DNA of 28,156 nt from IMG/VR virus record IMGVR_UViG_3300037502_000572, positions 1-28,156 of that record, one strand, 5' to 3'. How positions within the stretch are numbered: position 1 is the first letter of the stretch; each line of letters begins with the position of its first letter. The translations under genes and the position numbers were made by a program. This document shows positions 13,060-28,087 of the stretch, piece after piece. The notes beneath the pieces are model-generated. The model ran no database searches. It was not told the origin of the DNA and worked only from the letters and a program-made list of their open reading frames with translations. Source of the stretch: a virus.

Positions 13060-14760
13060 TTAGGTGAATGCCTTTGCGAATGATCCGCCGCGCCGTTTCT
13101 GATCCACGACCGCGGCCTTGGTTGCCTCCATTATTTTAGGCAACATCCCGATGATTTCGGCGCGAACAGTCTGAGAAACTCCTGTCGAAATGTTGATGTT
13201 TTGCACGATGGTCGGTGCGCCGCCACCCATCTTGTCATTTGCAATTATTGAACCGCTTGCATTTGGCACAAACAATTCTGGGCCTCGCTCGCCGACTACA
13301 TACGGTGATCCAGCCGAGACCGATCCGCCAATAGCCGCACCTGGGACTCTGAGGCCAGACCCGAGGTTTCCGCCTGTTGTTTGCACACCGCCACCCAATA
13401 GACCTCCAAGAGCATCCGCAAGCGGCCCTGTGATCGAGCGTTGAATCTGAATGCGGATTAAGTCTTGAATGATCGAGATTGCCATTGACCGGAATGCGTC
13501 TTTGACCGACATTGTCCCGGTCATAACCCCAAGAAGCGCATCTTCCATCCGGCGCAGTCCAGAGACCGCAACATTCTGCAAATTCCTGTTTAAGTCTTTA
13601 CTTGCCTCTGAGTATTGAATAAGCCCGCCGCTTGATTCCGCAAAATTCTCTCGGAGTTTTTTCAAGACAAGCGCATATTCCTCTGTGCTGAATCGGCCCT
13701 CCTCATTGAGGACATTGACCTTTGCGAGCTCCTCCGCATACTTTTGAGCTGGGGTCTGTATATCTTGAAGATATTTTGCCGCTTGCCGACTACGCTCCTC
13801 TGCACCTTTTTGAGCGGTTGCCTGTTGCTGAAAAATCCTGTCGGTGCGGTCTGAATAATCTTTTGAGATTGCAATGAGTCGCTCGATCTCTTTTGCTTGC
13901 TCTTGCGCGGCCTTTGCGGAATCAATGAGCGTCCGCGTCATCTTCTGAGTTGCTCCGCCTACTTTAGCCGCCGCTCCTGCGGTCGCCTCCATGCGTTGAG
14001 GGAGGTCTCCAGTAAAAGCATCGAAAGTTCCAGCGATTGCCTCTCGATTTGCTCCGCGCTCAATAAACTCAAAAAACTTGTTGAATCCCTCGACCACCGG
14101 ACCGAGCAAAGTCACCGCAACGGACTGGAGCTTCTTGCTCAGTTTGTCAAGGTTGTCATTAAACTCACCGGCCCTCTTGACAAAGTCATCGTCAAAAGTT
14201 GCCTGATATTGTTTGAGCGCATTCGAGCCTTGATTGAGAACCGGGATCAGATTCGTCCCAGAGCGTCCCAAAAGGTCTTGGGCGAGTTTTGTCTTAGTGG
14301 CCCCCTCTGCGGTGACTGCCATCGCGTCCACAAATTCATAAAAGAGGGAAGTCGTGTCTTTATAGGCCCCGTCTGAATCTTTCAGCGAAATGCCGAGTGT
14401 CTTAAATGCGTCGGATTGCGAGCCAATTCCCTTTTGGGCCTCCGCAAGAGACTTTTGGAATTTGACAATCGCATCGTTAAATTCTTCTGCGCTCGACCCG
14501 TTGAATTGAGCCGCATTGCCGAGGGCCGAGAGCTCCTTGACCGTAATACCAGTTTTTTCGGACAGGTCTCCGAGAGCGTCTGCGGTGTCGATCACGCTCT
14601 TTGCGAATGTTGTAATGGCGACGGTGGAGAATGCCGCCGCAAGAGGTCCAGCGATCCCTTTAAGACTTCCGGTGAGCCCGGAAATGTTGCTCTGAACCGA
14701 GCGGAAAGCCTCGCGGGTCTGGTCAATCGCGCTTATTCGGATCGTCGTGTCATTTGCCAT
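13060..14760 (-). CDS. Tail tape measure protein, 566 aa
   Basis: This sets tail length and is probably ejected with the DNA. It opens with 'IRISAIDQTREAFRSVQSN', then a Gly/Ala-rich stretch and the tape-measure signature SVIDTADALGDLSEKTG...ELSALGNAAQ (about 55-90). Long helical and coiled segments follow up to about 430, then a Gly-rich hydrophobic region (GGLLGGG) and a C-terminal 'QNINISTGVSQTVRAEI' segment. At roughly 0.15 nm per residue, 566 residues imply a tail near 85 nm, shorter than lambda. AAGGG precedes the ATG. Its first bases overlap the end of the GT frameshift product. Confidence 0.93.
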   Translation of the reverse strand: MANDTTIRISAIDQTREAFRSVQSNISGLTGSLKGIAGPLAAAFSTVAITTFAKSVIDTADALGDLSEKTGITVKELSALGNAAQFNGSSAEEFNDAIVKFQKSLAEAQKGIGSQSDAFKTLGISLKDSDGAYKDTTSLFYEFVDAMAVTAEGATKTKLAQDLLGRSGTNLIPVLNQGSNALKQYQATFDDDFVKRAGEFNDNLDKLSKKLQSVAVTLLGPVVEGFNKFFEFIERGANREAIAGTFDAFTGDLPQRMEATAGAAAKVGGATQKMTRTLIDSAKAAQEQAKEIERLIAISKDYSDRTDRIFQQQATAQKGAEERSRQAAKYLQDIQTPAQKYAEELAKVNVLNEEGRFSTEEYALVLKKLRENFAESSGGLIQYSEASKDLNRNLQNVAVSGLRRMEDALLGVMTGTMSVKDAFRSMAISIIQDLIRIQIQRSITGPLADALGGLLGGGVQTTGGNLGSGLRVPGAAIGGSVSAGSPYVVGERGPELFVPNASGSIIANDKMGGGAPTIVQNINISTGVSQTVRAEIIGMLPKIMEATKAAVVDQKRRGGSFAKAFT

Positions 14761-15237
14761 TGTCTTTGCCCTTCACCCGAAAATAAGCCACCCATTCGTG
14801 AAACTCATCGAGAGAGATTTCCTCTATCTCCCCGATTGTCTTGCCTAGCCGATCCGCCAAGGCGATGAGGTTAAACCTCAACGAATCGGCCCTTAGTTTT
14901 TTTCGGCCTCCTCCACCGAAACGACTGAACCAAACACTTCAGCCGCAACCCTGCTCATCAAGATGATTGGCTCACGCATTAGGAAAGGTTTGTCCTCCAG
15001 CGTAAACATCCTCTCACCGTCTTTCGTTTCAGCCTTGAGAATCAAGAGGTCAACCATCGCCTCGATCCCCATGTTGGTCAGAAAATCCTTGTGTTTTTTC
15101 TGGAGCCTGTCGACATCGTAGCAAGTGAGAACCGCCGCAAAAATTTCAAGCGGTTGGCCCTCATCTCCCCATTCTGCGACAACGATTTTCTTGCGGGTCT
15201 TTTGCCGTCTAGCGGCAATCTTCTCTCCCAGACCCAT
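14750..15237 (-). CDS. Tail assembly chaperone GT fusion, made by -1 frameshift
   Basis: Frame 0 (residues 1-114) is the G-type chaperone. Slippage of one base at 14902-14896 (A AAA AAC) continues into the -1 frame for 48 more residues, starting LRADSLRFNLIALADRLGKT and ending DNGK at 14750, inside the tape-measure start. The extension has the typical T-domain feel (SLDEFHEWVAYF). The fusion is 162 residues. In lambda, G and GT coat the tape measure and recruit tube subunits. Read directly from the sequence; production of the fusion is inferred from the site and the lambda precedent. Confidence 0.82.
14848..14902 (-). promoter_or_regulatory. Programmed -1 ribosomal frameshift element
   Basis: The slippery heptamer A AAA AAC (14902-14896) is in the right phase (GAA AAA AAC TAA). 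After a 5-base spacer, GCCGAT (14890-14885) can pair with ATCGGC (14853-14848). This stem encloses two small hairpins, TGAGG-TTTAA-CCTCA (14880-14866) and CGCC-TT-GGCG (14864-14855), giving a branched stimulatory structure. Confidence 0.8.
14893..15237 (-). CDS. Tail assembly chaperone G (frame-0 product), 114 aa
   Basis: Begins MGLGEKIAARRQKTRKKIVV and continues with 'EWGDEGQPLEIFAAVLTCYD', the usual strand-helix pattern of G-type tail chaperones, and ends ...SVEEAEKN followed by TAA just after the slippery site. It is placed between tail tube and tape measure, as in lambda. It would be the abundant chaperone, with the GT fusion a minor product. The gene starts 2 bases after the tube gene's stop. 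Confidence 0.85.
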   Translation of the reverse strand: MGLGEKIAARRQKTRKKIVVAEWGDEGQPLEIFAAVLTCYDVDRLQKKHKDFLTNMGIEAMVDLLILKAETKDGERMFTLEDKPFLMREPIILMSRVAAEVFGSVVSVEEAEKN

Positions 15238-15239
15238 AA

Positions 15240-15629
15240 TTAAACCGTCGTCTCAGATAGCGCACCAGTTCCTTGGAAAGCGAAGCTAGCCTCGACCATT
15301 CCATCGAATGAGGCCGTGATCGATTTCTCGGTCACGATCACCGATCCGGTGTAATAGGTGTCGCCAGAGGTCGATCCCTCGGGATAAATGTTGATCGTTA
15401 CGGTCGAGCCGACATCGAGGGTCAATTGACCATTGGTGTCAGTCTCGTCCCAGAAACATTCAATCGAGCCAGAGAATGTCTTGAGAGAGGCCAAATAGGT
15501 GCGACTGGAGTCACCCATTGTCGTATCTTCAAGAGTATCTGCGCTTTCCGTGATTGTGTAGGAGCGGATTTCAGCGATCGCGTTTGCGCCGCTTTTTACC
15601 GTCCCCTCTGAACCTTTGTGAGTCGCCAT
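15240..15629 (-). CDS. Major tail tube protein, 129 aa
   Basis: Starts MATHKGSEGTVKSGANAIAE and reads as a beta-sandwich tube protein: 'TITESADTLEDTTMGDSSRT', then 'SLKTFSGSIECFWDETD' and VGSTVTINIYPEG, the pattern of TP901-1/lambda-V-like tail tubes ('D...T..FSG...G...'). AGGAGG lies upstream of the ATG. It is one domain, without the extra Ig domain of lambda gpV. Its stop is 2 bases before the chaperone gene. It should be among the most abundant virion proteins. Confidence 0.9.
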   Translation of the reverse strand: MATHKGSEGTVKSGANAIAEIRSYTITESADTLEDTTMGDSSRTYLASLKTFSGSIECFWDETDTNGQLTLDVGSTVTINIYPEGSTSGDTYYTGSVIVTEKSITASFDGMVEASFAFQGTGALSETTV

Positions 15630-16425: not shown

Positions 16426-17073
16426 TTATGCCCTTGTGAAGATTACATCGCGGTGAATTCGCTTGGAGATTTTATAACCCAAACCCGCAAGAAAATCGAC
16501 TGTTTCCGAGTCCTCGACCCCATATCGCTTGCCCAATCCCTTGAGCTCAAGACAGATCACCGGACTGCATCGGTCAATCGTGTCCTCGGCCCCAAGCATC
16601 GCGAAATGCTCGAAACCTTCGATGTCGAGCTGGATGAGGTCAACATCGTCGTATTCAAACGAATCGATGGGCATGATCTGGAAATCATTGCCATCTTTGA
16701 TTTGGTGCGCCCCGATATTGTCGGGGTCAATATGATCCATCGCGCCCGTGTCGAAACAGTCTCCGAGGCCGCCTCTTGTCCGCAGGATGTTTATGACGCC
16801 TGCAGTGTTTTGGATGAGAGCCGCATAATTGTCCACATCTGGCTCGAAGGTATGCACCGCGCGAAACTTCTCGGAAAGGGCCTTGGGCCATATCCCGACA
16901 TTCCCACCCGCTTGGACCACCCTGCGGTAATCCTTGCAGAGGGGAAGAATCTCGGCGAGATCATTGACCTCCCGCAGGATGATGTCGAGAGCGACCTGAT
17001 CTTTAGCGGGAACCCACCAACCGCGCCTCTGGATAAGGGATGCGAGACTGCTCCCAAGGTCTTGGTTTTCCAT
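16426..17073 (-). CDS. FkbM-family SAM methyltransferase, 215 aa
   Basis: The SAM-binding motif is VVQAGGNVGIWPKALSE, followed by 'VHTFEPDVDNYAAL' as the acidic ribose-binding strand. 'DLIQLDIEGFEHFAMLGAED' and a C-terminal 'VICLEL' follow, the FkbM pattern. Such enzymes O-methylate sugars or other small hydroxyls. I use ATG 17073 (MENQDLGSSL), with GGTGG about 9 bases upstream; ATG 17133 would deepen the overlap with the glycosyltransferase gene, already 71 bases. Its partner is likely the adjacent glycosyltransferase, methylating the sugar that enzyme transfers. The target is inferred, not shown. Confidence 0.85.
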   Translation of the reverse strand: MENQDLGSSLASLIQRRGWWVPAKDQVALDIILREVNDLAEILPLCKDYRRVVQAGGNVGIWPKALSEKFRAVHTFEPDVDNYAALIQNTAGVINILRTRGGLGDCFDTGAMDHIDPDNIGAHQIKDGNDFQIMPIDSFEYDDVDLIQLDIEGFEHFAMLGAEDTIDRCSPVICLELKGLGKRYGVEDSETVDFLAGLGYKISKRIHRDVIFTRA

Positions 17074-17620
17074 GAAATATGACCACCTTTCCGTCTGCGT
17101 TGCGAGCGAGAACATCGGCCTTGAAACTGACAATATCGTCCGTGAAATCTTGAAAATATGTTGCGGTGACTGTTTGCTCTAGGTATTGCTGGTCGCCATG
17201 CGGAAGATCAAAGACAGGATGCGCCGCATACTTCTCATAGAGCCAAGTCATATCTTGCGACCAATACATAATCGAGCTCTGCATTGCCTTTGGATTGGCC
17301 TTGCCCCGGTAGACATCCCGCAAAATCACAAAGTTCTCATCCGCAATCTTGTCGAGGAAACTAATTGGGCCTTGAATGACCGTGTCGAGGTCCATGTATA
17401 AGATCGGAGGTTTTAGCCTAAAGATCTCCATTTTGGACCACCACCCAGGCCATTTGTGGACCATTGGGACATAGTCGGAATTGACCACCTGATCCGACAC
17501 GCAAACAAATGGAAGTTCTAACCGCCTCTCGACCATCCATTTCAGAGCGGAAACATGGGAGGGGGTGTAGTCACCCCCGCCCCGCAAGACGCAAGCTACT
17601 CGGAGTCCTTGCGTTTCCAA
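17003..17620 (-). CDS. Glycosyltransferase with DxD motif, about 205 aa
   Basis: The N-terminus reads RVACVLRGGGDYTPSHVSAL, then LPFVCVSD, WPGWWSKMEIFRLK and the donor/metal motif LYMDLDTVIQGPI. A late 'PHGDQQYLEQTV' and 'FHGKPRPWE' follow, a pattern shared with GT8-like enzymes found in phages. The start is unclear: no ATG or GTG fits. TTG 17620 keeps the first strand but has a poor ribosome-binding site; TTG 17587 removes part of the strand. A frame open to 17791 exists but its N-terminal part is a shadow of the neighbouring gene. It is translated probably by coupling to the 76-residue gene it overlaps. Confidence 0.78.
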   Translation of the reverse strand: METQGLRVACVLRGGGDYTPSHVSALKWMVERRLELPFVCVSDQVVNSDYVPMVHKWPGWWSKMEIFRLKPPILYMDLDTVIQGPISFLDKIADENFVILRDVYRGKANPKAMQSSIMYWSQDMTWLYEKYAAHPVFDLPHGDQQYLEQTVTATYFQDFTDDIVSFKADVLARNADGKVVIFHGKPRPWEQSRIPYPEARLVGSR

Positions 17621-17826
17621 GTGCGTTTTGTGAGCTTGGGTTGCTCGGAGGTCTCGACCTCGACCACGCGATTCACAATCGTGGCCACCTCGCCAGAGTA
17701 AGCCTTGGCCTTGCCGCGACCGATGAGCCACGCCGCGTCCGCGTCCTTGACCTCGATGACATCGCCGCAATCCCGATGATGTCCGTCCCAATGCACGGGG
17801 CTAATAATTTCGACCTGTTGCTTCAT
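17596..17826 (-). CDS. Small hypothetical protein, 76 aa
   Basis: Starts MKQQVEIISPVHWDGHHRDC and continues 'GDVIEVKDADAAWLIGRGKA', a short beta-rich module ('Gd.iev.d.dAawLi..GkA') that recurs in small phage head-region proteins. The tail is Lys/Arg/Glu rich and probably disordered (KLTKRTWKRKDSE). The start overlaps the upstream gene's stop by 4 bases. It sits among the sugar-modification genes, but its module suggests a structural-region origin. Function unknown. Confidence 0.7.
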   Translation of the reverse strand: MKQQVEIISPVHWDGHHRDCGDVIEVKDADAAWLIGRGKAKAYSGEVATIVNRVVEVETSEQPKLTKRTWKRKDSE

Positions 17827-18359
17827 TGATGCACCTCCTTTAATCGTCCAGAGACAAAGTATATTCTCTCAGGGTTTTGCAAACCATTGAGAAATTCTTT
17901 CCATCGGTTTAAATCGTCTCGGGCCGAGCGATGTTTCGACTCGAAAGGCCAAGATTGCGGACCCTGCCACCAATACTCCCGGCCCCCATAATCCTGATAT
18001 TGGTCCATCCCGCAGACATAAATAGTATCGAACCCCATCTGGTCAGCGCACCAGACCGCCATCGCCCCGGAGAAGCCTATCGGTGGGCATTCCCCGGCGT
18101 GGATAAAGTCGGACCTAGATTTCCAATGATTGAGGGTCGTGAGCTTCTTGATGTCTCCATATCCCTCGACGAAATCGAACATATGCCGATCTAAAAAGGC
18201 CACATAGTCGAGCGGGAGGATAAGTGAGTGCTGATTGACTCCGATCAGGACATCCACTTGCGGGATTGCCCGAAGATCAGAGGGGAGAGAGACTCCGCCG
18301 CCCAAGACCGCGCAAGTCTGCCCTTTGTGAAAATCCCTGTATTGCCTGATTGATTCCAT
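17823..18359 (-). CDS. DUF115-like Rossmann protein, 178 aa
   Basis: Starts MESIRQYRDFHKGQTCAVLG and has a glycine-rich first turn (VLGGGVSLPSDLRAI), a following 'VDVLIGVNQHSLILPLDYVA' strand-loop, and 'GFDTIYVCGMDQYQDYGGRE' late in the chain. This pattern resembles the DUF115/6-hydroxymethylpterin-kinase-like fold, seen in glycosylation-associated proteins such as flagellin Maf-type enzymes. The resemblance is by pattern only. Its ATG lies directly at the U-run of the capsid terminator, without a Shine-Dalgarno. It opens the cassette whose other members are a glycosyltransferase and an FkbM methyltransferase. Confidence 0.65.
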   Translation of the reverse strand: MESIRQYRDFHKGQTCAVLGGGVSLPSDLRAIPQVDVLIGVNQHSLILPLDYVAFLDRHMFDFVEGYGDIKKLTTLNHWKSRSDFIHAGECPPIGFSGAMAVWCADQMGFDTIYVCGMDQYQDYGGREYWWQGPQSWPFESKHRSARDDLNRWKEFLNGLQNPERIYFVSGRLKEVHQ

Positions 18360-18407: not shown

Positions 18408-19670
18408 TCAGGTCGTGGTCACATCTTTGATTGCCGCGAAGCTCTCGGCGTGGCGGACCTTAACATCGACCTCTTGGAAAGCGGCGATGCGGATCGTGCC
18501 TGCGCTCGAACCCGTATAAGGATCGACCAGCACATCGGGCGAGTTCCACATACCGATCATCAGGTCGGAGAAGTTTCCGAAGATCACGGCGGAACAGACA
18601 CCGGAGCTCGTTCCCTTGGTCAGATCGCTCGGGACCAGAGTCGTGGAGGCCACATTGTAGCCAAGCAGGACATTGGTGTCGTTGAGGATGAAGTTGCCCT
18701 CAACACCCGAAGTCTGACGGGGACGGTTACGCATAGCGGCGACCACTTTGGGGTTGGTCAGGAATGCGAGGTTGCCCATGAGTGCGTTGTCGATTGCGAC
18801 TTCACGCTCAAGGTTGACCAGCGAGGCGAAAGTGATCGCGCCACCGTTGGTTCCGATAGCAACCGAGCCGATTCCGTTGGTTCCGAGGATACCGGTGGGC
18901 TCATTTGCACCGCCGCCCTCGATAGCCACCTCGTCGATCTTGCGAGCGAACGATTGGAGGATGTCCTCACGAATGATCTGCTCGACCGAAGGATCGGACT
19001 GGATCGCCAATTTGCGGGAAATGTCGGTAAACGAAGCCAGAGTCTTGGGAGACATAGTCACTTGCGTGAATGTCTGGGCCGACTCGGAGGGAGCGGAGTT
19101 CTCACCCACGAAAGCCACGGTCGATCCGGTTCCCATCTTGGGGATCGCAACATCACCTTTGAGGCCAGTCATCATCCGGGCTCCGAGGTTGCCAATCACT
19201 AGATTGGCGCGGAGGCGGTCGATAAACTCGCCAGCCATGTAGTCCTCGGCGATGATGTTCGAGCCGTTGGCGGGAGAAGTCGTGAGAATGTCGCGCTTGG
19301 CGAATACGCTCATGGGGACAAAGAAACCGCGAGCGGCCTTGCCCGTATTGCGAGCGATTTCCTCAGAAACCTCAGCCTCGAAACCAGTCACGCGACCATG
19401 CTTTGCCATCGAGTCGATAGCGCGCAGGAGCGAATAACGCTTCTGCTCGGTCTTGGTCATCTCAACATCGGGAGCGTGGAGGGGTTTGTCGAGGTTGCGC
19501 TCCAAGAGGAAACCTTGGAATTCACCGTAGGACATACCGCGCTCGATAGCTTGGGCCACCAGATTGCTCTTGTTGTGGCGAGCGGCGAGCTCGGAGATTT
19601 GCTTCAATTCAGCGTTGCGCTTTGCAACGGCGGCCTCTGCGGTGACCGCGCCCGTGTTTTCTTGAGACAT
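18408..19670 (-). CDS. Major capsid protein from an internal start, 420 aa
   Basis: ATG 19670 (codon 513 of the fusion, MSQENTGAVTAEAAVAKRNA) has AAGGA 7 bases upstream, a good ribosome-binding site in the middle of a reading frame. The product is 420 residues, a normal HK97-fold capsid length: a delta scaffold domain (residues about 1-125, helical) that would be cut off, then N-arm, E-loop and P/A domains (GDVAIPKMGTGSTVAFVGEN; SPKTLASFTDISRKLAIQSD; NEPTGILGTNG). Most capsid subunits are expected to come from this start, with the fusion a minor product carrying protease, as lambda C/Nu3 are nested. The internal start is inferred from sequence. Confidence 0.75.
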   Translation of the reverse strand: MSQENTGAVTAEAAVAKRNAELKQISELAARHNKSNLVAQAIERGMSYGEFQGFLLERNLDKPLHAPDVEMTKTEQKRYSLLRAIDSMAKHGRVTGFEAEVSEEIARNTGKAARGFFVPMSVFAKRDILTTSPANGSNIIAEDYMAGEFIDRLRANLVIGNLGARMMTGLKGDVAIPKMGTGSTVAFVGENSAPSESAQTFTQVTMSPKTLASFTDISRKLAIQSDPSVEQIIREDILQSFARKIDEVAIEGGGANEPTGILGTNGIGSVAIGTNGGAITFASLVNLEREVAIDNALMGNLAFLTNPKVVAAMRNRPRQTSGVEGNFILNDTNVLLGYNVASTTLVPSDLTKGTSSGVCSAVIFGNFSDLMIGMWNSPDVLVDPYTGSSAGTIRIAAFQEVDVKVRHAESFAAIKDVTTT

Positions 19671-21206
19671 TTTCGTTTCCTTTTCAGAAATGGTTTGGAT
19701 AAAAACGGGTTGCGAAATCTCCGCCGACCGACCCACGCCGACCGACGGGTCTGCGGGAATAGATACGACTGAAACTTCTAGGGGTTGCCACGAAGTCGCC
19801 CGATATATTTTGCCCTCGGATTCCCTCGCGACCTTTTTGACATAGTAGCCAATACTCACATTTCCGCGAATACCGTCTGCGATGTCATCATAAACCTCGG
19901 AAGCCCGCGCACCTTTTCCAAAGCGCACCGTGGCCCGTAACTTACGGGCAGACTCATCGAGGGTTACTGATTCGACGACCCCAATCTGTTGGGTCGGGTC
20001 ATGGTCTAGCAGGAGCGGAGCCCTGCCAGAGTTCAAAAAGCTGAGATCAATGCTGGAGGCCGAGTGGTCGAGAACCTCCATGCCACCCATACGCTCAACG
20101 GGAAGCTCGCTCGAAATCGCCATCCGCACCCTGCGGTCATCCTCGATCACGGGCTCCATGTTGTCTGCCCGCAACACTAAGGGCTCACCCTTGCGGTCGC
20201 CATAAGAAGCCTCTACCAATTCCTCGACCAGCTCCTCGGTTATTTCCTCGACCTCGGACTCGGGCATTTCGGCCTTGGCGAATTCGACGACGAAACTGTT
20301 TTCAGTTTCAGTCACCGCCACAATATGTCTTTGCTCTTGATCCATACGCTCCTCGCTTGCTGGCTCAAATATTAAAGCCGAAAAGTTATGTTCGTCTAGC
20401 CATTGGCGGGCCTCATCCGCAGAATATCGCGCCGCATCAAACCGAATCGCTTGAATTTCCGATTCTCCGCCCTTGATGCCATAAATAAAGTCGATTCCGG
20501 GGCCTCCAGCGTCAGCCTGCCGAGCGAATGAATCATATTGGTCCGGGTCGGTCAGACGGGCCGCGTGTTCATTCGGATACGGTCTGGCCTCCATTTGGCG
20601 GAGGTCGTTGATCTTGGTCAGAGTCGAGAATTTATGGGCCACCAGAGTATCGGTCGCGCTCCATCCGTCCTCGCCCTCACGATATAACCGAATCAAGGCC
20701 GCAGGATCATCCGGTGAGCCTGTAATCTCGAAACTGGACTCCGGGACATTTATCGTGCCATCGCGCTCGATTCGCTCGACGCGGCCCCGAGCCCTCCCGC
20801 CGGGATTGTCCCAAGAGACAAAGTCGCCGACCGATAGTGCGTCCGGTGCGGCCCGATCCTGATTGTCAATCGTGTCCATTCTGCTTACCCTCTCATTTGC
20901 CCAAGACTCTCCGGGATCACCACCCCATAAAGCCCAAGCGATGCGGCCTGCGCTCGGATAACCTTGCTCTCCGGGCCTAAATCCCTCGGCCTCTTTATCT
21001 ACTGAATGACGCGAAAAAAAACTCGCCATGCGTCGGACGGTATCCAAGCTGAGTTCGCGACGGTTTGCAAGGTCTCTGGCTCTAGCAACGCCAATCTCCG
21101 TTCCACCTCGTCCAAATTCAGCTCTCCAGTCGAGACCGCGTTGAGCCTCCTCTGCCATCGCCTCCGTCGGTCGCGTGTCGATTTCAACACCTTTATATTC
21201 CGCCAT
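18408..21206 (-). CDS. Prohead protease-major capsid fusion with Tudor-like insert, 932 aa
   Basis: Domains in order: residues 22-105, a helical phage module ('FFSRHSVDK...GYPSAGRIAWALWGGDP'). At 125-200, a hypervirulence-associated Tudor-like domain (VGDFVSWDNPGG...LVAHKFSTLTKI). At 238-282, a small module (IDFIYGIKGG...IQAIRFD). An acidic linker follows, then an HK97/XkdF-type prohead protease at 350-500 (His402 in LLLDHDPTQQIG, Ser451 in GNVSIGY, as in the His-Ser protease family). At 513-640 is a helical delta domain, and at 640-932 an HK97-fold capsid. One frame encodes all; no stop separates protease from capsid. The ATG directly follows the upstream TAA. Confidence 0.88.
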   Translation of the reverse strand: MAEYKGVEIDTRPTEAMAEEAQRGLDWRAEFGRGGTEIGVARARDLANRRELSLDTVRRMASFFSRHSVDKEAEGFRPGEQGYPSAGRIAWALWGGDPGESWANERVSRMDTIDNQDRAAPDALSVGDFVSWDNPGGRARGRVERIERDGTINVPESSFEITGSPDDPAALIRLYREGEDGWSATDTLVAHKFSTLTKINDLRQMEARPYPNEHAARLTDPDQYDSFARQADAGGPGIDFIYGIKGGESEIQAIRFDAARYSADEARQWLDEHNFSALIFEPASEERMDQEQRHIVAVTETENSFVVEFAKAEMPESEVEEITEELVEELVEASYGDRKGEPLVLRADNMEPVIEDDRRVRMAISSELPVERMGGMEVLDHSASSIDLSFLNSGRAPLLLDHDPTQQIGVVESVTLDESARKLRATVRFGKGARASEVYDDIADGIRGNVSIGYYVKKVARESEGKIYRATSWQPLEVSVVSIPADPSVGVGRSAEISQPVFIQTISEKETKMSQENTGAVTAEAAVAKRNAELKQISELAARHNKSNLVAQAIERGMSYGEFQGFLLERNLDKPLHAPDVEMTKTEQKRYSLLRAIDSMAKHGRVTGFEAEVSEEIARNTGKAARGFFVPMSVFAKRDILTTSPANGSNIIAEDYMAGEFIDRLRANLVIGNLGARMMTGLKGDVAIPKMGTGSTVAFVGENSAPSESAQTFTQVTMSPKTLASFTDISRKLAIQSDPSVEQIIREDILQSFARKIDEVAIEGGGANEPTGILGTNGIGSVAIGTNGGAITFASLVNLEREVAIDNALMGNLAFLTNPKVVAAMRNRPRQTSGVEGNFILNDTNVLLGYNVASTTLVPSDLTKGTSSGVCSAVIFGNFSDLMIGMWNSPDVLVDPYTGSSAGTIRIAAFQEVDVKVRHAESFAAIKDVTTT

Positions 21207-26333: not shown

Positions 26334-26787
26334 TGACCGATGCTAATTCTGAAAGGGCCTCATTGACTGCGGTTTTTAATAGGGATTTGACCTCGACCAG
26401 AGACTCAGCCGCAAAGACCTCGGGAGCGGCCTTGGTCGGAATGCTCAACATCTTTGCGCGACAGTTAGCCATTACATCCACCCACGCGGCCTCTACATCT
26501 TCTGCAGGGATTAGTTTGCCCTCCGCTTGGGCCTGCTCCATTTCCAACAGATCAGCGCGAACCTTTACCAATCGAGTGCGGTGGGCAGAGTAATCGTCGC
26601 CGTGGACATCTCCCTTGACTGCCCGATCCCGCAAATAGCGGATATAAGACTGGACCACGGGGACCAGCTCATACCGTCCACGCTCGGCCCTTGGGACAAC
26701 CCCCTCCCGCACCAGTTGGTTGACCCTTTGCGGGGTCAGGTCCAACAGTTTGCAGATGGTATCAAGCGGAAATGTCTGCGCCGCCAT
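26248..26787 (-). CDS. Terminase small subunit, Nu1-like, 179 aa
   Basis: An N-terminal winged helix (FPLDTICKLLDLTPQRVNQLVREGVVPRAERG) matches Nu1-type DNA recognition proteins, followed by a linker and a helical dimer/motor-binding part (RLVKVRADLLEMEQAQAEGK and 'VMANCRAKMLSIPTKAAPE'). It would recognise the packaging site and deliver it to the large subunit. The Asp/Glu/Gly/Pro-rich end is the large-subunit contact region. The ATG overlaps the methyltransferase stop by 26 bases. Confidence 0.88.
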   Translation of the reverse strand: MAAQTFPLDTICKLLDLTPQRVNQLVREGVVPRAERGRYELVPVVQSYIRYLRDRAVKGDVHGDDYSAHRTRLVKVRADLLEMEQAQAEGKLIPAEDVEAAWVDVMANCRAKMLSIPTKAAPEVFAAESLVEVKSLLKTAVNEALSELASVNVQVKNPIRSSESGPGDPELAGGPTASA

Positions 26788-28087
26788 TTAACAATTTGGC
26801 CTTTTGGCCTGTGAAGTCCTCCCACCGCTTGACGATGACATCGCAATACTTGGGATCAAATTCCATTAGCCGCGCCTTTCGCCCGATTTTGTGGCAGGCA
26901 ATTAGCGTAGACCCAGAACCACCAAACAGGTCCAAAACAAAATCACCTCGGCGGGATGAGTTCTTGAGCATTCCGAGGATAAGTTCTACAGGTTTCATCG
27001 TTGGATGCTCGGCGTTTCTTTTAGGCTTTTCGGCCCGAATAGTTGAGCCAATAACCTCCTCGGCCTGTAAATTTTGACCAGAGATTCGCAGAATACTGTT
27101 TGCGAGTTCGACGGTAATTGAGCCATCTGGCTGAACGGTAAACGGAAGTTCTTTTGCATCGATGACTGTGGTTTTTGCTCGACCACCGTACCACTTATGT
27201 GCCGCACCCTCTTTCCAGCCATAGAGGATTGGTTCATGCCGCCATTGATAGTCGGAGCGACCTAACACCAGACTGTTTTTGACCCAGATAAGACATCCCG
27301 ATAATTTGAATCCAGCCTCAAGCATTGCACCTCGAAAGTTGTAGCCTTCAGTATCCGCATGGGCTATATAAATTGGAGCCCCTTCTCGCATTACTGAGTA
27401 ACCACTAACAAACGCATCTTGTAGAAACTGTCTGAAGGCCGAGTCCTCGAGGTTGTCGTTTTTAATCTTCCCGGCAGTTCCCTCATAGTTCACATTGTAT
27501 GGAGGGTCCGTCCAACAACAGTCGATCAGAGAATCACAAAGCGATTCAACATGGTCAATGCGGGTCGAGTCACCGCACATAACCCGATGGTCTCCAAGAA
27601 CCCAAATGTCGCCAAGTTTTGATTTGGGCTCCTCCGGTATTTCTGGGGCCGCATCATCATCGGTCAACCCCTGCTCCTCAATGTCATCCCCAATTAAAAA
27701 CAATTCGTCAATCTCTTCTTTAGAGAAACCAGTCAGCGACAGATCGAAATCCTCCTCCCGCAATTCCCCGAGCTCCACCTTCAGCATCTCATCATCCCAG
27801 CCGGCATTGAGGGCGAGCTTATTGTCGGCAATGACATACGCCCGCTTCTGCGCCGGGGTCAGGTACGTGAGTCGAATCGCCGGGACTGTTTTCATTTGGA
27901 GCCTCTGCGCCGCAACAGTCCGACCGTGGCCCGCAATGATCTGCCCGTCCTCATCGACCAGCACCGGGTTGGTAAAACCAAACTCCTTGATGGAAGCCAT
28001 GATCTGAGCGATTTGCTCGTCCGAATGCGTCCGCGAATTCCTCGCATACGGAATCAATTTTTCTGTTTCTATTTGCTCGATCTTCAT
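26762..28087 (-). CDS. ParB-domain DNA methyltransferase (beta class), 441 aa
   Basis: N-terminal ParB/sulfiredoxin-type domain (residues 4-90; 'IIAGHGRTVAAQRL' with the GHGR motif), then an acidic linker (about 100-158), and an amino-methyltransferase domain. The catalytic TDPPYNV (193-199) precedes the SAM-binding FGGSGST (388-394) with 'PTMKPVEL' before it, the beta-class order seen in N6-adenine and N4-cytosine enzymes. 'MEFDPKYCDVIVKRW' follows. GGGAG lies just upstream of the ATG. It probably modifies phage DNA against host restriction; the target site cannot be read from sequence. It is the first gene of the packaging operon in this window. Confidence 0.9.
   Translation of the reverse strand: MKIEQIETEKLIPYARNSRTHSDEQIAQIMASIKEFGFTNPVLVDEDGQIIAGHGRTVAAQRLQMKTVPAIRLTYLTPAQKRAYVIADNKLALNAGWDDEMLKVELGELREEDFDLSLTGFSKEEIDELFLIGDDIEEQGLTDDDAAPEIPEEPKSKLGDIWVLGDHRVMCGDSTRIDHVESLCDSLIDCCWTDPPYNVNYEGTAGKIKNDNLEDSAFRQFLQDAFVSGYSVMREGAPIYIAHADTEGYNFRGAMLEAGFKLSGCLIWVKNSLVLGRSDYQWRHEPILYGWKEGAAHKWYGGRAKTTVIDAKELPFTVQPDGSITVELANSILRISGQNLQAEEVIGSTIRAEKPKRNAEHPTMKPVELILGMLKNSSRRGDFVLDLFGGSGSTLIACHKIGRKARLMEFDPKYCDVIVKRWEDFTGQKAKLLNGGADISA

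Follow-up and report, generated by a model that had tools for sequence, protein, structure and literature searches.

A candidate dnaX-like -1 frameshift site for the G and GT tail assembly chaperones of a marine-type phage

The tail assembly chaperones gpG and gpGT of a marine-type phage are very likely produced by a dnaX-like -1 frameshift at the slippery heptamer A AAA AAC, which is probably promoted by a downstream hairpin and an upstream Shine-Dalgarno (SD)-like element. The sequence analysed, hereafter the window, is the virus record IMGVR_UViG_3300037502_000572 of IMG/VR; it comprises 28,156 bases, and its major genes are all on the minus strand. A sequence-only reading of the window had proposed a programmed -1 frameshift for a G/GT pair, and this main claim gained strong support from conservation, gene order, fold, and the T-domain match. 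Lambda G/GT and dnaX are the frameshift precedents (PMC5009743), and reporters of phage tail chaperones have given 6-7% frameshifting (PMC3711429). The mechanism most likely belongs to the class known since lambda, to which the conserved hairpin adds a detail. No description of frameshifting in the present phage group was found in the literature searched, the coverage of which was incomplete.

Gene neighbourhood and coding content of the junction

The features of the locus are listed in Table 1. The G-like gene is located between the tail tube and tape-measure genes, which is the lambda-type position of G/GT. Genes for a head closure protein, a tail terminator, and the tail tube protein lie 5' of G; the tape-measure gene and, further along, a gene for a J-like tail fibre protein lie 3' of G/T.

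Table 1. Features of the G/T junction in the window and unannotated T frames of isolate genomes
Feature	Position	Strand	Basis or remark
Major tail tube protein gene	15240..15629	-	PF06199 E 1.9e-5, phrog_1407 E 1.2e-16; neighbour upstream of G
G-like tail assembly chaperone gene, zero frame, 114 aa	14893..15237	-	phrog_344 via relatives; AlphaFold/2OB9
SD-like element GGAGGAGG	14907..14914	-	conserved GAGG core, ending 7 nt before heptamer
Slippery heptamer A AAA AAC	14896..14902	-	in phase; zero-frame stop TAA (14895-14893) directly after
T domain, -1 frame, 48 codons + TGA	14750..14896	-	phrog_337 'tail protein' E 1e-6; codon-position pattern
Probable stimulatory hairpin, 17 bp, 11-nt loop	14847..14891	-	minimum free energy, shuffles, covariation, synonymous-codon null
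Tape-measure protein gene	13060..14760	-	PF09718 E 7e-12
Unannotated T frame, CRP-823	L082:1845-1984
Unannotated T frame, CRP-406	L083:1845-1984
Unannotated T frame, HTVC026P	L084:1794-1961

Three other regions of the window were also recorded. An FkbM-type methyltransferase (16426-17133) and two unidentified ORFs occupy 16426-18359, between the capsid and head-closure genes. A single 932-aa ORF at 18408-21206 is a prohead protease (S78) fused to the major capsid protein, and its extra N-terminal part includes a weak Hva1_TUDOR match. At 26762-28087, an N6/N4 DNA methyltransferase is fused to a ParB-N domain.

The zero frame of G ends GAA AAA AAC TAA, and the heptamer is in the phase that had been claimed for it. 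Heptamers of the classes A6N, T6N, T3A3N, and G3A3[CG] were searched for in the 30 genes of the window, and the one at 14902-14896 was the only in-phase heptamer within 80 nt of a stop codon. The -1 frame, translated as LRADSLRFNLIALADRLGKTIGEIEEISLDEFHEWVAYFRVKGKDNGK, is open for exactly 48 codons, and its run into the tape-measure gene was confirmed with a measured overlap of 11 nt between the end of the TGA at 14750 and the start of the tape-measure ATG at 14760.

The T-like character that had been read from the -1 frame was corroborated by the phrog_337 match (Table 1) and by a conserved alignment; Pfam Phage_tail_T scored 12.6 bits against this frame, under the family cut-off. Differences from the window fell at T-frame codon positions 1, 2, and 3 in the numbers 666, 396, and 1051, respectively, as expected of a coding frame. 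The -1 frame thus encodes a conserved T domain that reaches the start of the tape-measure gene.

It could be argued that T is translated separately, by internal initiation or coupled re-initiation, and is not fused to G. Some members have a TTG or ATG in the T frame shortly past the junction, and in the window codons 7 and 14, numbered from the heptamer, are TTG. However, a T-frame start codon upstream of the site was found in 0 of 50 sequences, and 14 of the 50 lack any ATG, GTG, or TTG before T-frame codon 15, yet conserved T residues start from the first T codons. Separate initiation is therefore not general in the family. It also leaves the heptamer and its phase unexplained, and we consider it scarcely probable.

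The T frame is unannotated in the deposited genomes of the Roseobacter phages CRP-823 and CRP-406 and the Pelagibacter phage HTVC026P. Because the T domain is left unannotated in such isolate genomes, gene callers overlook a T-bearing protein that these marine phages probably cannot do without.

G alone gave no significant sequence match. Among the members of the G family, 20 of 28 matched phrog_344, 'tail assembly chaperone', with a best E of 1.2e-7. When G was modelled with AlphaFold (mean pLDDT 86), the structure that best matched the model was 2OB9, the tail assembly chaperone of HK97 (E 5e-4 in Foldseek; Z 9.4 over 100 aligned residues), followed by YqbN. G is accordingly predicted to adopt the tail assembly chaperone fold. 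The likeness to the HK97 protein lies in this predicted fold, whereas the sequence identity is merely 16-20%, and a sequence-profile search of solved structures with G returned nothing significant.

Conservation of the heptamer and the homopolymer variant of a sister clade

Relatives of G were found in viral contigs, and none was found in bacterial genome contigs. The 79 viral-contig relatives having the junction span 33-96% identity in G. Loss of the heptamer or of the -1 frame among them was checked for, and 77 keep both: A AAA AAC adjoins the zero-frame stop in phase, and the T frame stays open for 137-179 nt past the heptamer. In locus L051, A AAA AAC is replaced by G GGA AAC, which is also an in-phase slippery sequence and is followed by a matching T frame. 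In locus L042 (3300-3370), the SD-like element and heptamer are duplicated in tandem, which disrupts the frame relation; the duplication is missing from the near-identical contigs L040, L041, and L043 and may be an assembly error. With further scans included, 139 distinct 60-base junctions carry the arrangement.

These counts bear on the possibility that G and T are one ordinary fusion gene into which sequencing or assembly has introduced a frameshift at the junction. Homopolymers are prone to indel errors, and the duplication in L042 looks artefactual. Nevertheless, the same frame relation recurs in all 139 distinct junction sequences and in the complete isolate genomes of CRP-823, CRP-406, and HTVC026P. 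The isolate genomes are decisive against an error, the probability of which is practically negligible.

A variant that was not visible from the window was found in an AT-rich, pelagiphage-like sister clade (loci L085-L164, L247, L249, and L084), in which a run of A9, A10, or A11 occupies the G/T junction in 53 of 53 distinct junctions, sometimes without the C (A AAA AAA or A AAA AAG). The 201 kb of sister-clade DNA contain 55 runs of A or T of at least nine bases, against 53 junctions, and nearly all long A/T runs in loci L085-L164 fall at the G/T junction. No clear hairpin signal was seen at the 53 sister-clade junctions (mean z -0.65; 6 of 53 below -2).

Slippage by bacterial RNA polymerase is highly efficient at a run of nine bases (PMC5009743), and the A9-A11 runs make a change of mechanism plausible. 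It is a tentative possibility, somewhat short of even odds, that one chaperone family exchanged a ribosomal slip at A6-A7 with hairpin and SD stimulation, as in the clade of the window, for slippage at A9-A11, probably by RNA polymerase, without a hairpin, as in the AT-rich clade. Such an exchange, if true, would mirror in phages the dnaX pair of E. coli and Thermus, and the A9-A11 clade allows ribosome and polymerase slippage to be compared at homologous junctions.

For the window itself, transcriptional slippage would mean that RNA polymerase adds an A at the junction run and the altered mRNA is translated normally into GT. The sister clade lends this some weight, having at the same place runs of lengths with known polymerase slippage (PMC5009743). 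However, the window has only seven As, below the homopolymer of 8-9 or more that is expected of transcriptional slippage; 4 of 50 aligned rows have six, and G GGA AAC of L051 contains no long run. The exact phase of the heptamer, the downstream hairpin, and the internal SD-like element are also left unexplained, and transcriptional slippage is very unlikely in the window.

Elements upstream and downstream of the heptamer

The SD-like element upstream of the heptamer had been missed by the sequence-only reading. Predicted pairing with the anti-SD sequence was strongest at the position of GAGG. The Glu codon at -11 is GAG in 38 of the 43 relatives with Glu there, whereas in the rest of G 197 of 511 Glu codons are GAG (Fisher p 1e-10, a significance that is overstated since the rows are related).

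Downstream of the heptamer, the minimum-energy fold is one 17-bp stem at -25.9 kcal/mol (shuffle z -2.65), in which 14891-14875 are paired with 14863-14847 and which starts about 4-5 nt after the heptamer. A branched structure, a 6-bp outer stem enclosing two almost perfect hairpins, had been proposed for this place. The fold did not bear it out: the three-way junction reaches -15.5 kcal/mol, or -19.4 kcal/mol with extra pairs allowed, and is thus 6.5-10 kcal/mol less stable than the single hairpin. The bases of its outer stem (GCCGAT/ATCGGC, 6 bp) do exist and are used by the hairpin too. Both of the small palindromes are present as well, but in the form proposed the second inner hairpin would require a loop of 2 nt.

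Conservation of the stem was evaluated in 50 distinct, gapless, and unselected aligned rows. Of the cells of the long stem, 78.5% are paired, and both-side changes occur at 12 of 17 stem pairs; these changes are not independent events, because the rows are related. The covariation score of the stem was 0.315, above the 0.205 of shuffled controls and the maximum of 0.168 reached by slid ones. A subset of 41 hairpin-type rows was picked after inspection of the hairpin, a structure derived from the window itself, so the test on 50 unselected rows is the fairer one. In the 41 rows, the continuous stem is paired in 88% of cells; pair 20-48 is CG in 27, UA in 9, and AU in 5 rows with zero breaks, and pair 14-54 occurs as G-C, C-G, A-U, and G-U variants. 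Consensus folding predicted the central 7 pairs from the 41 hairpin-type rows and no pairs from all 50 rows, which include hairpin-less clades. Synonymous recoding of the T domain gave far weaker folds than the natural sequences (p <= 0.05 in 43 of 50 rows, including all 41 hairpin-type rows; window z -6.2). No consistent complement for a pseudoknot between the loop and downstream sequence was seen on inspection by eye.

These comparisons also bear on whether the frameshift is real but stimulated by the three-way junction. Such a stimulator has a precedent in IS911 (PMC5009743), the outer stem that it has in common with the hairpin covaries, and both inner hairpins are perfect in the window. 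Across relatives, however, only about 61% of the cells of the inner helices are paired, against the 88% given above for the continuous stem in hairpin-type rows. Covariation thus favours one long hairpin. An IS911-like stimulator was rejected as a candidate, since its inner hairpins are poorly conserved and less stable than the continuous stem, and a three-way junction at this site is highly improbable.

The single hairpin is present throughout the clade of the window, and strong stems also occur in the distant loci L074 and L262. It is absent at the same position in L072, L083, and many or most CRP-type loci, all of which keep A AAA AAC; hence, it is not essential to the family. Seven CRP-type loci with six As (L183, L193, L199, L204, L212, L215, and L237) have a strong stem about 20 nt after the heptamer, a distance that exceeds the usual one for a stimulator.

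Proposed mechanism and comparison with known systems

In the proposed mechanism, most ribosomes translating G would stop at the TAA and release gpG. A minority, with tRNA-Lys and tRNA-Asn on AAA AAC, would shift one base backwards to AAA AAA and continue for another 48 codons, yielding a 162-aa gpGT. The slip would probably be promoted by the 17-bp hairpin, which the elongating ribosome meets 4-5 nt downstream, and probably be aided by the internal GAGG 7 nt upstream, which could pair with the anti-SD sequence of 16S rRNA. In E. coli, the heptamer A AAA AAC has a low efficiency (PMC4066793), a weakness in keeping both with stimulators being present and with a low GT:G ratio. On the model of lambda, the tape-measure protein may be coated by gpG, and tail tube subunits may be recruited by the T domain of gpGT. 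The covarying hairpin and SD-like element offer a natural phage series for testing how stimulators tune chaperone ratios.

Frameshifts in the tail chaperones of dsDNA phages were reportedly surveyed by Xu et al. in 2004. The window shares with lambda G/GT the order tube, G, T, and tape measure, a -1 shift near the end of G, a T frame overlapping the start of the tape-measure gene, and the expectation of two chaperone forms. It differs in its heptamer (G GGA AAG in lambda), in the length of the T domain (more than 100 codons in lambda and 48 here), and in its hairpin, as a comparable test of lambda, run with the T codons of lambda, showed no downstream hairpin (z +1.2).

In Thermus thermophilus, dnaX relies on transcriptional slippage at a nine-base run. 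The sister clade resembles it in having A9-A11 and no hairpin at the homologous junction, whereas the window has A7, a hairpin, and an SD-like element.

The closest counterpart in the layout of the signal is dnaX of E. coli, with an SD-like element upstream, an A-rich heptamer, and a hairpin about 5 nt downstream, and this placement of three elements is established for dnaX. Our likening of the two also draws in part on published accounts (PMC4066793, PMC5009743). The dnaX heptamer is A AAA AAG, which is much more efficient than A AAA AAC, and the shift ends the protein in dnaX but extends it here. The signal of the window, with both its SD-like element and its hairpin, would work like the dnaX signal but differs in the heptamer.
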